Part shown: piece after piece, positions 21,176 through 24,576 of the stretch
Layout of the letters: every line of letters starts with the position of its first letter
Position numbering within the stretch: the first letter of the stretch is position 1
NCBI GenBank assembly: GCA_945875545.1
Contig: CAMCKZ010000024.1
Span: 1 to 38,530 of the forward strand
Direction: 5' to 3'
Length of the DNA stretch: 38,530 nt
Origin: Polyangium aurulentum
Lineage (GTDB): Bacteria; Myxococcota_A; Polyangia; Polyangiales; Polyangiaceae
Program-made: the position numbers and the translations under genes
The notes under the pieces: model-generated
What the model saw: the letters and a program-made list of their open reading frames with translations, nothing else
Database searches by the model: none
Told to the model about the DNA's origin: nothing

Positions 21176-22846
21176 CTACAGTTGGTCGGCGCGCACTTGG
21201 GGGCTCATGCACCGCGCCGCGCCCGAGCGCTCAAGCTCCGCGATCGCCGCGAAAACAGTGGCTTCGTCCCAGGCATCGCCGCACAACTGGAGGCCAATGG
21301 GCCGGCCGTTGGAGTCGGTGCCCACGGGAACGCTGGCCGCCGGGAGCCCCGTGAGGTTGGCCAAAAAAGTGTACCGCGTAAGGGCCTCGACGAGGCGTGC
21401 ATCGAGAAACCCCGACGACATTTCTGCGTCGGAAACTTCCGGCGCGGTGACCGCGAGGGTCGGACTCGCGAGGAGGTCGATGCGCTCAAAGTGACGCTGC
21501 ACTTCTAGCCGGAGGCCCGAGCGAAGACGCTGGGCGTCGAGGTATTCAACGGTCGAAAACTCGAGAAGCGCCGCCACACTGATGCGGAGATCGAGCCCCA
21601 TATTTTCGGGCTGTGTTAGGTAGTCCAGGGCCAAGTCAGCGGCTGCGGGCCCGCCGATACTCACGACGCCAATGGGTCCGGCGAAGGCCGCGAGATCCGC
21701 GTCAATTTCCACGAGTTCCGCTCCCGCAGCCTCGAGCACGGAGAGGGCCTGCCGGCACGTTTGTGCGATGTGCCAGGGCGCATTTTGCCACTCGTGTTTG
21801 TACATGCCGATGCGCAAACCCTTAACGCCGCGCCCGAGGGCACTTCGCCATTGGCCGCTTGGACCAGACGGCGCGAGGATTGTCTGATCGTCTTCTTGGT
21901 CGAGGCCCGCGGTGATTTCGAGAACGTCTGCCAGCTCCGCGCTGCCACACGCGAGGGGCCCTACGTGCTCCACGGTGCCCCCAAAAACGTCGCCGGCGCG
22001 GCTGATGCGGCCCCAGGTCGCTTTGATGCCAAAAACGCCGTTAAGCGATGCTGGAATGCGAATGGACCCGCCCCCGTCGGCACCGAGGCCGAAGGGCACG
22101 AGTCCCGTTCCCACGGCGACGCCGGTGCCCGTGGACGACCCTCCCGCGACGCAGCGCGGATCGTGGGGGTTGCGCGGCATAGGCCGTTTGGGATTGAAGC
22201 CGATGGGCGACATTCCGTACTCCGTCATGGCGCTACTTCCGATGACGATGGCGCCGGCTTCGCGCAGAATGCGGACCATCGTCGCATCGCGTTCCGCAGG
22301 GATTCCGCTCTTCACCGCTGTGCCGGCCTGGCAACGAAGCCCGGCGACTGCCATTTCTTCCTTGACAACGAAGGGGATTCCGTCGAGGGGGCCGAGCGGA
22401 GTGCCTTTGGCGTAGCGTTCGCGCGAGGCCCGCGCCGCTTGAAGGGCTTCCGCCTCGCATAGTTCATACACCGGCGAGCAATTGCTTCCGCCGGAGCGCA
22501 GCGCCTTCGTCTGCGCGATGACGTGCTCCGTGAGCACCACGGGGTCGAGGTTGCCGCGCATAAAATCGGCTACGTACGATGCCGCATTGCGCGCCCACCC
22601 TTGGTACCGCGGTGCGCCGAGTTTCGAATCGTGCGGCGTGCGCGGGGCTCGTCCCATGAGCGGCGCGTTATCCAAGGGAATTCGCCCGCGAAACGTGGGT
22701 GGCAGGCGATCCAGCCGGTCGACACCGAGGTCTTTTCGAAAGACCTGCTTGATGGCCATCGCACCTACACGGTGTCGGGCGAGCTTGCTGAGGGCTTCCA
22801 GGGCTTTGCCGGAAATGCGGGGGGGTGGCGGTAGCATGGCGGCCAT
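21176..22846 (-). CDS. Amidase-signature family hydrolase
   Basis: This enzyme belongs to the amidase-signature family (amidases, GatA, fatty-acid amide hydrolases), which hydrolyse C-N amide bonds with a Ser-cisSer-Lys triad. In the 556-residue product the triad is Lys162 (FVVKEEMAVAG), Ser237 in GGSSTGTG and Ser261 in DGGGSIRIPAS. An N-terminal extension of about 100 residues precedes the catalytic domain. The substrate cannot be told. Without gatB/gatC nearby it is unlikely to be GatA. The ATG at 22846 (or 22837) is preferred. A start at 22948 would overlap the apaG coding region. Confidence 0.88.
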   Translation of the reverse strand: MAAMLPPPPRISGKALEALSKLARHRVGAMAIKQVFRKDLGVDRLDRLPPTFRGRIPLDNAPLMGRAPRTPHDSKLGAPRYQGWARNAASYVADFMRGNLDPVVLTEHVIAQTKALRSGGSNCSPVYELCEAEALQAARASRERYAKGTPLGPLDGIPFVVKEEMAVAGLRCQAGTAVKSGIPAERDATMVRILREAGAIVIGSSAMTEYGMSPIGFNPKRPMPRNPHDPRCVAGGSSTGTGVAVGTGLVPFGLGADGGGSIRIPASLNGVFGIKATWGRISRAGDVFGGTVEHVGPLACGSAELADVLEITAGLDQEDDQTILAPSGPSGQWRSALGRGVKGLRIGMYKHEWQNAPWHIAQTCRQALSVLEAAGAELVEIDADLAAFAGPIGVVSIGGPAAADLALDYLTQPENMGLDLRISVAALLEFSTVEYLDAQRLRSGLRLEVQRHFERIDLLASPTLAVTAPEVSDAEMSSGFLDARLVEALTRYTFLANLTGLPAASVPVGTDSNGRPIGLQLCGDAWDEATVFAAIAELERSGAARCMSPQVRADQL

Positions 22847-22916
22847 CTTACGGAGATCGCGGGCCACGTCGAGGGCAGCCTTGACGGCCCTCAAAACTTC
22901 AGTAGGCCAATGTGTT

Positions 22917-23300
22917 GTGACGATCGCAACCACGCAGGGAATCCGCATTGAAGTGCAGTCCGGGTACGTCGCGGCGCAGTCGTCACCGCGCGACCACCAT
23001 TACGTCTTTGCGTACACCGTGCGTATTTCCAACGTCGGCAACGCCTACGCGCAACTTCTTAACCGCCACTGGGTCATCACCGACGGCGAAGGTCATGTCG
23101 AAGAAGTGCGCGGGCCCGGCGTGGTTGGCCAAACGCCGCGGCTGAATCCCGGCGACAGCTTCGAGTACACGAGCGGGTGTGTTTTGCGCACGCCGCGCGG
23201 TTCCATGGCGGGAACCTACGAATTCACCCGCATCGACAACGACCGTTTTGACGCTCAAATCGCTTCGTTTGACCTGCGTCTTCCCCTCACACTGAACTGA
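22917..23300 (+). CDS. apaG: ApaG-domain protein
   Basis: ApaG is a small immunoglobulin-like fold protein linked to Co2+ and Mg2+ homeostasis. Its exact biochemical role is not settled. The 127-residue product matches the family along its length: IEVQSGYVAAQSSPRDHHYV, FAYTVRISNVGNAYAQLLNR, GPGVVGQTPRLNPGDSFEYT and a SGCVLRTPRGSMAGTYE segment. The GTG at 22917 gives a family-like length. A TTG at 22881 has a better ribosome site (GAGGG five bases upstream) and would add 12 residues. It is divergent from the amidase and 4 nt ahead of cyaY. Confidence 0.93.
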   Translation: MTIATTQGIRIEVQSGYVAAQSSPRDHHYVFAYTVRISNVGNAYAQLLNRHWVITDGEGHVEEVRGPGVVGQTPRLNPGDSFEYTSGCVLRTPRGSMAGTYEFTRIDNDRFDAQIASFDLRLPLTLN

Positions 23301-23304
23301 TTCC

Positions 23305-23661
23305 ATGAACGACGAAGCCGACTATTTTCGCCACGCCGAGGTCGCCTTTCGTCGCATCGACGATGCCCTCTGCGACGTCGACGTCGACTTGGTGGACTGC
23401 GAGCGAAGCGGAGATGTGCTCACGCTCACCTTTGGCTCGGGCAAACGCTGCGTCGTCAATACGCAGCGCCCCACGCAACAAATCTGGGTGGCGGCAAGTT
23501 CTCGCGGCTGGCACTTTCGCTTCGATGGCGCCGAGTGGATCGACGAACGGAACGCCGCCAGCAACGACGCCAGCATCAATGAGAAGGCGCTGACGAATAC
23601 GCTCTTTTCAACGCTCGAGAGCATCGTCAAAGAACACGCCAATGTCGATATATCGTTCTGA
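23305..23661 (+). CDS. cyaY: CyaY, bacterial frataxin
   Basis: CyaY is the bacterial frataxin, an acidic iron-binding protein that modulates iron-sulfur cluster assembly at IscS. The 118-residue product shows the frataxin layout. A first helix carries acidic residues (EADYFRHAEVAFRRIDDAL), followed by strands with DVDVDLVDCERSGDVLTLTF. The signature VVNTQRPTQQIWVAASSRGW comes next, then FRFDGAEWIDER. The NxQxPxxQIWxA core is diagnostic. It begins 4 nt after apaG and its 3' end overlaps the globin gene by 20 nt. Frataxins are best known from alpha-, beta- and gammaproteobacteria, so its presence here is notable. Confidence 0.9.
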   Translation: MNDEADYFRHAEVAFRRIDDALCDVDVDLVDCERSGDVLTLTFGSGKRCVVNTQRPTQQIWVAASSRGWHFRFDGAEWIDERNAASNDASINEKALTNTLFSTLESIVKEHANVDISF

Positions 23662-24136
23662 TCCCGCGCTGTTCGCGCGCACCAGCGAGAAGCAGGTACG
23701 CGAGTGTTTGACTGTACTCTACACGCGAATGAAAGAAGACCGCATGGTGGGTTTCTTGTTCGAGGGCAAGCCGCTGGAGGCCATCGTCGAAGGGCAGGTT
23801 CAGCTCGTGTGCGCGGTGCTCGGCGCGCCCGGTTTCGCGTCCTACCAAGGCCGCTCGCTGCCCGAAGCTCACCGCGAACTACCCTTGCTGCCGGGGCATT
23901 TCGATAGGCGCCACGAGCTTTTGCGCGAGGCCCTCGCTGCGGTGGGCGTCGATGAAAAAGTAAACGCCGCATGGCTTGAAGCCGATACGGCGTGGCGAAG
24001 GGCCATCTTGAATTCAGGCGAATTTGCGCGCGAAAGAGCGCGAAACGCTCAAGACTCCGTGGCCGGCGCGTCCGATGCGCCTTCCGCGTCGCCTTCGCCT
24101 TCGGCTTCAAGCAAGGCACCGCCCACGGGGAAGTAA
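23642..24136 (+). CDS. Truncated haemoglobin-like protein
   Basis: The 164-residue product matches truncated (2-on-2) globins, haem proteins that bind O2 or NO. Residues 15-120 contain a B-helix Tyr27 (LTVLYTRM), the stretch GFLFEGKPLEAIVEGQVQLV, the YxGR-xxxxAH motif (SYQGRSLPEAHREL) and GHFDRRHELL with His86 in the proximal-ligand place. A Ser/Pro/Ala-rich tail (about 138-164) is not part of the fold and lies in the overlap with the convergent gene. The start overlaps cyaY by 20 nt. Which globin subgroup applies is uncertain, with group 1 more likely by motif. Confidence 0.78.
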   Translation: MSIYRSDPALFARTSEKQVRECLTVLYTRMKEDRMVGFLFEGKPLEAIVEGQVQLVCAVLGAPGFASYQGRSLPEAHRELPLLPGHFDRRHELLREALAAVGVDEKVNAAWLEADTAWRRAILNSGEFARERARNAQDSVAGASDAPSASPSPSASSKAPPTGK

Positions 24137-24576
24137 GCCGTCGCGCGGGTCTTACCGGTGGTGCGAACGGCATTGGCCTTCAGCAGCTCGCGAAGAAGGC
24201 GCTTCGTCGTGGGTACGTCGGCGCCGATGGCGTCTTGGATGACCTTCATCGTCGCGCCGCTCTCGGCTTTGGCGATGGCCCTGAGGGCCTTCGCAACGAA
24301 CTTCTGCCGATCGTTTTCGGAGAGCTTCGGTGGGCGGCCTGGCCTACCGGGTGAACGCTTTTCGCCGACGGCTCGCGGAGCGCGCGGGGTGGACGCAGCT
24401 CGCAACGAAGCCCGCGCCCTCGGGGCCTTGAGCCCGGCGACCTCGGCCAGTGCCGTTCGTTGCACAAGGCCCAACATATCGGCGACAAACTTTTCAACTA
24501 GATTGGCAAGCGCGGCTTGCACGGTTCCCGCATTTCGCATGCAATCATGTTGCATCAGAATGTCTGCTTCTGGCAA
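24049..24576 (-). CDS. AT-hook and winged-helix-like DNA-binding protein
   Basis: I do not recognise a named family. The 175-residue product has a helical N-terminal part (about 15-50), an Arg/Ala/Pro-rich linker, an AT-hook-like SPGRPGRPPK at about residues 75-84 and a helical segment (about 88-150) with winged-helix spacing: VAKALRAIAKAESGATMKVI, PTTKRLLRELLKANAV and a TTGKTRATAYFPV wing. Proteins with this AT-hook plus small helix-turn-helix layout are frequent in Myxococcota and are presumed regulators. The acidic tail overlaps the end of the globin gene by 88 nt on the opposite strand. Starts at 24555 or 24540 are also possible. Confidence 0.65.
   Translation of the reverse strand: MPEADILMQHDCMRNAGTVQAALANLVEKFVADMLGLVQRTALAEVAGLKAPRARASLRAASTPRAPRAVGEKRSPGRPGRPPKLSENDRQKFVAKALRAIAKAESGATMKVIQDAIGADVPTTKRLLRELLKANAVRTTGKTRATAYFPVGGALLEAEGEGDAEGASDAPATES

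Follow-up and report, generated by a model that had tools for sequence, protein, structure and literature searches.

A conserved apaG-cyaY-globin gene cluster in the Polyangiaceae and its linkage to isc genes in relatives

Structure of the locus and its gene products

The DNA analysed here (38,530 nucleotides of Polyangium aurulentum, referred to as the window) contains three small genes, encoding ApaG, a bacterial frataxin (CyaY) and a truncated haemoglobin, which lie head to tail on the forward strand, the first two being separated by a 4-nt gap and the last two sharing a 20-nt overlap. Our analysis confirmed this compact organization and both junctions, as given in a preliminary description of the same DNA. 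Of the span proposed there (22881-24136), the limits of cyaY and the globin gene and the stop of apaG were retained. The apaG start was revised: a TTG codon at 22881 is possible, but a GTG at 22917 is likelier, since the N termini of homologous proteins match at this position. The genes of the locus are as follows.

21176-22837, minus strand: amidase-signature gene, divergent from apaG (PF01425, 3e-82)
22917-23300, plus strand: apaG (ApaG/CorD, DUF525), 127 aa, GTG start set by homologues (PF04379, NF003967)
23305-23661, plus strand: cyaY (bacterial frataxin), 118 aa, ATG at 23305 (PF01491, TIGR03421), CyaY clade A
23642-24136, plus strand: truncated haemoglobin of group 1 type, 164 aa, ATG at 23642 (PF01152), overlapping cyaY by 20 nt
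24049-24576, minus strand: small winged-helix-like gene, convergent, overlapping the 3' end of the globin gene, with weak HTH matches only

The start of the amidase-signature gene is uncertain (its longest ORF begins at 22948); this gene is the conserved left-hand neighbour in many relatives and lies near apaG/cyaY in 13 other genomes. Further upstream there is a flagellar gene cluster (window positions 434-21039), in which FliF, an FliI-like ATPase, FlhA, an FlhF-like GTPase and FliW were recognized with Pfam, while the remaining members were assigned by reading. A consensus search, which is uninformative in such GC-rich DNA, found neither a sigma-70-like promoter nor a terminator around the trio.

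In each of the three congeneric species, the overlapping ATG is the sole in-frame start of the globin gene that was found. Between these species, differences at third codon positions are approximately 2 to 4 times as frequent as those at second positions in apaG, cyaY and the globin gene, and the amino acid sequences of all three products are therefore under constraint. The window comes from a 3.5-Mb metagenome-assembled genome (MAG); contamination or an assembly chimera is an unlikely source of the trio, which is present in two independent congeneric MAG records.

Each of the three proteins is an ordinary member of a known family: the curated thresholds of both Pfam and NCBIfam are passed by the products of apaG and cyaY, and that of Pfam by the globin. 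ApaG matches DUF525 (PF04379) at 1.9e-36 and the equivalog-level model NF003967 at 6.6e-47 (158.5 bits; cut-off 106), which places it in the same family as ApaG/CorD of Salmonella and Escherichia coli. In enterobacteria apaG is located with ksgA and apaH, whereas its neighbour here is cyaY. CyaY is assigned to the frataxins by Frataxin_Cyay (PF01491; 1.5e-18, 67.3 bits, cut-off 21.3) as well as by TIGR03421 (1.5e-24, 85.9 bits, cut-off 53.25), and it matches two CyaY chains of known structure (4jpd and 1ew4; 2e-16 to 3e-16). The co-occurrence with IscU expected of a frataxin was also found: the window's genome encodes IscU (1.8e-65, at G000:C101:4385-4753), and an IscU match is present in every listed cyaY genome from the family sample but one, G034, where the contig terminates after iscS.

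The globin matches Bac_globin (PF01152) at 1e-7 (32.6 bits, cut-off 21) and has zero matches in NCBIfam; beyond approximately residue 140 it carries a Ser/Pro/Ala-rich tail. Its best sequence match among solved structures is the group 1 truncated haemoglobin of Tetrahymena (3.9e-5). The predicted structure (pLDDT 86.8) is a 2-on-2 globin fold nearest to group 1 truncated haemoglobins, to which the protein belongs according to this model; the Shewanella benthica representative was superposed with Z 18.1 and 1.4-1.5 A, ahead of groups II and III (Z approximately 15.7 and 15.0). Residues Y27 (Tyr B10), F40 (Phe CD1), Q52 (Gln E11) and H77 (His F8) align to Y33, F46, Q58 and H81 of Mycobacterium tuberculosis HbN, are invariant across 8 orthologues and leave the haem-ligand positions intact. 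The globin thus shares its fold and main haem-pocket positions with HbN and with the Tetrahymena and S. benthica proteins, but it is only about 20% identical to known group 1 members, contains an invariant LPEAH...GHFDRRH signature, in which the conserved FG/G-region motif GHFDRRH is confined to this globin subgroup and differs from HbN, and is encoded by a gene predicted to be translationally coupled to cyaY.

Frataxin lineages and conservation of the gene order

Frataxin had been considered unusual in Myxococcota-like bacteria. This view was rejected on account of its occurrence in 81 of the 98 sampled genomes of the family Polyangiaceae and in 89 of the 284 genomes of the phylum sample. The CyaY phylogeny proposed in the preliminary description was constructed, and the family proteins fell into two deeply separated groups, clade A (n=30, including the window's CyaY) and clade B (n=51), with one type per genome and never both. 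The comparison of CyaY and ApaG lineages comprised loci L001-L082 and L269-L288.

ApaG proteins of six large-genome clade B members nest inside the ApaG of clade A. This incongruence suggests that cyaY may have been exchanged in some lineages.

The apaG-cyaY-globin trio is a real, conserved and tightly packed gene set. The absence of this arrangement from every relative had been named as a ground for rejecting its significance; a neighbourhood survey found relatives with apaG next to cyaY (24 genomes) and with cyaY next to the globin gene (8 genomes). All 24 genomes in which apaG immediately precedes cyaY, both genes being on one strand (among 81 frataxin-bearing members of the family) belong to clade A (24/30), and this order was seen in none of the clade B genomes examined, some of which have short flanks. 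Outside the family, apaG-cyaY adjacency was found in a single genome, which belongs to a different family of the order, and a comparison of coordinates revealed no neighbouring globin and cyaY genes elsewhere in the phylum sample. The gene maps were prepared with a simple codon-usage caller that missed the overlapping globin gene of the window, so small genes elsewhere may have been missed.

A profile search with the globin identified 8 genomes encoding a very close orthologue (E <= 5.5e-58), and in 8/8 of them it is located directly downstream of cyaY; 4 further genomes contain a close globin (3e-50 to 9e-46) situated away from cyaY, and other matches are more distant. The overlap between cyaY and the globin gene amounts to 20, 14 and 14 nt within the genus and to 4, 1, 1 and 1 nt elsewhere, and one genome has a 7- or 25-nt gap. 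Such overlapping stop/start junctions usually indicate translational coupling, which is therefore likely for this gene pair. The globin gene is present in only 8/30 clade A genomes and is thus an optional component.

Linkage to isc genes

The canonical isc operon of E. coli has the order iscR-iscS-iscU-iscA-hscB-hscA-fdx, and cyaY is located elsewhere in the genome. Because frataxin works with IscU, the latter was chosen as the search target (TIGR01999); MerR, IscA, HscB and ferredoxin were identified with Pfam, while IscS and HscA were assigned from homology and by reading. In 15 of the 30 clade A genomes the block lies in or beside the isc operon, within approximately 15 kb of isc genes: IscU is encoded 2.0-14.9 kb from cyaY in 14 of them, and the fifteenth is G034, in which merR-iscS follows before the contig ends. 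IscU was near cyaY in none of the 51 clade B genomes. Two genomes (G081 and G069) contain an uninterrupted apaG-cyaY-merR-iscS-iscU-iscA-hscB-hscA array, and a third (G080) the order apaG-cyaY-globin-X-merR-iscS-iscU-iscA-hscB-hscA-fdx, all on one strand. The linked clusters thus share the iscS-iscU-iscA-hscB-hscA-fdx order with E. coli, but differ in having a MerR-family gene at the head in place of iscR, and apaG-cyaY, sometimes with the globin gene, upstream. Another truncated haemoglobin gene located among genes of this kind is glbN of Nostoc commune, within an iron-sulphur/nitrogenase assembly cluster; the latter is nif rather than isc, and frataxin is not included.

According to the survey of Roche et al. 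2015 (PMC4440780), cyaY of alpha-, beta- and gammaproteobacteria has no genes for Fe-S biogenesis in its neighbourhood; the CyaY proteins are of the same family, but half of the clade A genomes do have such genes close by. All the IscU proteins examined carry Val at residue 108, and a frataxin-dependent IscU (Met108) was not found; with this residue class, frataxin would not be expected to be indispensable (PMC4440780).

Many clade A genomes contain, between cyaY and merR-isc, a gene on the opposite strand that encodes a member of a conserved family of large proteins (500 to ~1,800 aa; L249:3982-5475 and homologues). The representative of this gene that was searched (P497) gave only sub-threshold TPR matches.

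In the window's own genome the isc operon resides on another contig (L259) and does not adjoin the trio; isc is likewise not beside cyaY in G012 (a congener with long flanking sequences), nor in two other genomes (G004 and G090). The HTH-like gene at 24049-24576, which has a same-genus match at 1.9e-51, has homologues located between cyaY and merR-isc in relatives (1.7e-4 in L051, 0.0041 in L058). Since the window keeps this gene of the cyaY/merR-isc junction, the arrangement fits an ancestral trio-isc link that would later have been broken in the window's genus, the homology being modest (E 1.7e-4).

A 16-bp dyad, ACCCTNACGTNAGGGT, is present upstream of merR in most isc loci (L249-L268; e.g. 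L249:6321-6336 and L259:2385-2400), and may be the operator for an isc regulator other than IscR. It was absent from the whole window, with up to 3 mismatches allowed, and from the region upstream of apaG in every gene-called locus checked. A MerR operator shared by isc and the trio was therefore rejected, and the trio is probably not under direct control of that MerR.

Possible function of the cluster

The role and partners of bacterial frataxin are still debated, partly because its gene usually sits away from Fe-S genes. Where cyaY adjoins isc, along with apaG and in some genomes a coupled globin gene, the arrangement offers genomic evidence on frataxin partners and concrete genes for testing. 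It could also connect two further proteins with Fe-S biogenesis: a truncated globin and ApaG, the function of which is not well understood. The arrangement appears to be undescribed, in agreement with the preliminary description. In the open-access literature, whose silence is not proof, we found no account of apaG and cyaY together or of a frataxin-globin-isc linkage: PMC4440780 was the only report found on cyaY with the isc operon and genomic context, and PMC8811941, on truncated haemoglobin and frataxin, reports no gene linkage.

We consider it rather probable that apaG-cyaY-globin constitutes an operon-like accessory module of ISC assembly, ancestrally located beside isc in this branch of the Polyangiaceae and later separated in the window's genus. 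The three genes would be transcribed as one unit, and each of their products would have a role in ISC. The frataxin family is established to act on the IscS-IscU complex as an iron-dependent regulator or iron donor, and CyaY would do so here. In view of its pocket residues and linkage, the coupled globin is proposed to bind O2 or NO, and might remove NO or buffer O2 close to the site of cluster assembly. Cobalt poisons Fe-S assembly, and ApaG could add tolerance to divalent cations (Mg2+/Co2+); the corD phenotype of Salmonella (Co2+ resistance/Mg2+ efflux) is reviewed in PMC12421838. These chemical activities of the globin and ApaG are predictions. The proximity of the trio to Fe-S genes in relatives suggests that both proteins help or protect Fe-S cluster building. 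It is a more tentative idea, which we would not count as likely, that in part of the Polyangiaceae the production of a dedicated haemoglobin is matched to that of frataxin, the globin being an integral component of this process with a protective or sensing role.

The preliminary description envisaged a joint function of the three genes, whose cluster is indeed conserved in relatives and has operon-tight junctions; the form proposed, a free-standing iron/nitrosative-stress unit independent of the isc operon, seems improbable. It would be consistent with the separation of the trio from isc in the window's genus, as well as with the group 1 pocket positions that the globin has in common with M. 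tuberculosis HbN, whose NO detoxification is cited in PMC8811941. However, the block adjoins isc in 15 relatives and the window retains a gene of the cyaY/merR-isc junction; this adjacency, shared by half of clade A, therefore points to Fe-S cluster assembly instead. Less improbable, but still unlikely in our opinion, is inherited proximity without shared function, in which apaG and cyaY have been neighbours since a common ancestor, the globin gene was inserted later, and the close spacing reflects genome packing. The loss of isc linkage in several genomes, the lack of the globin in most genomes and the lack of a regulatory dyad common to the trio and isc agree with such a history, and apaG and cyaY can evidently part, as in some genomes that carry a clade B CyaY the ApaG groups within that of clade A. 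Against it, many genera retain the gene order and strand despite differing neighbour genes, and the cyaY-globin stop/start overlap persists while its length varies.

A further question concerns the globin within the proposed ISC accessory module, where, instead of detoxifying NO as an enzyme, it could serve Fe-S assembly as an O2/redox sensor or as a haem/iron reservoir. The subgroup-specific GHFDRRH stretch, which HbN lacks, favours this option, as does the fact that no dedicated reductase gene adjoins the globin gene in the window. We nevertheless regard it as doubtful, since the globin retains Tyr B10 and Gln E11, two positions characteristic of NO-dioxygenase-type globins of group 1.

Other globins were also encountered in the family. 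A second, more distant type (L166-L169 and others, ~1e-27) has the proximal His but neither Tyr B10 nor Gln E11, and its counterpart of the GHFDRR found in the cyaY-linked type is GQFMRR. In two loci of one genus (L161 and L162), a close globin gene immediately adjoins a tsaD-like gene (tRNA threonylcarbamoyl transferase, identified by eye).
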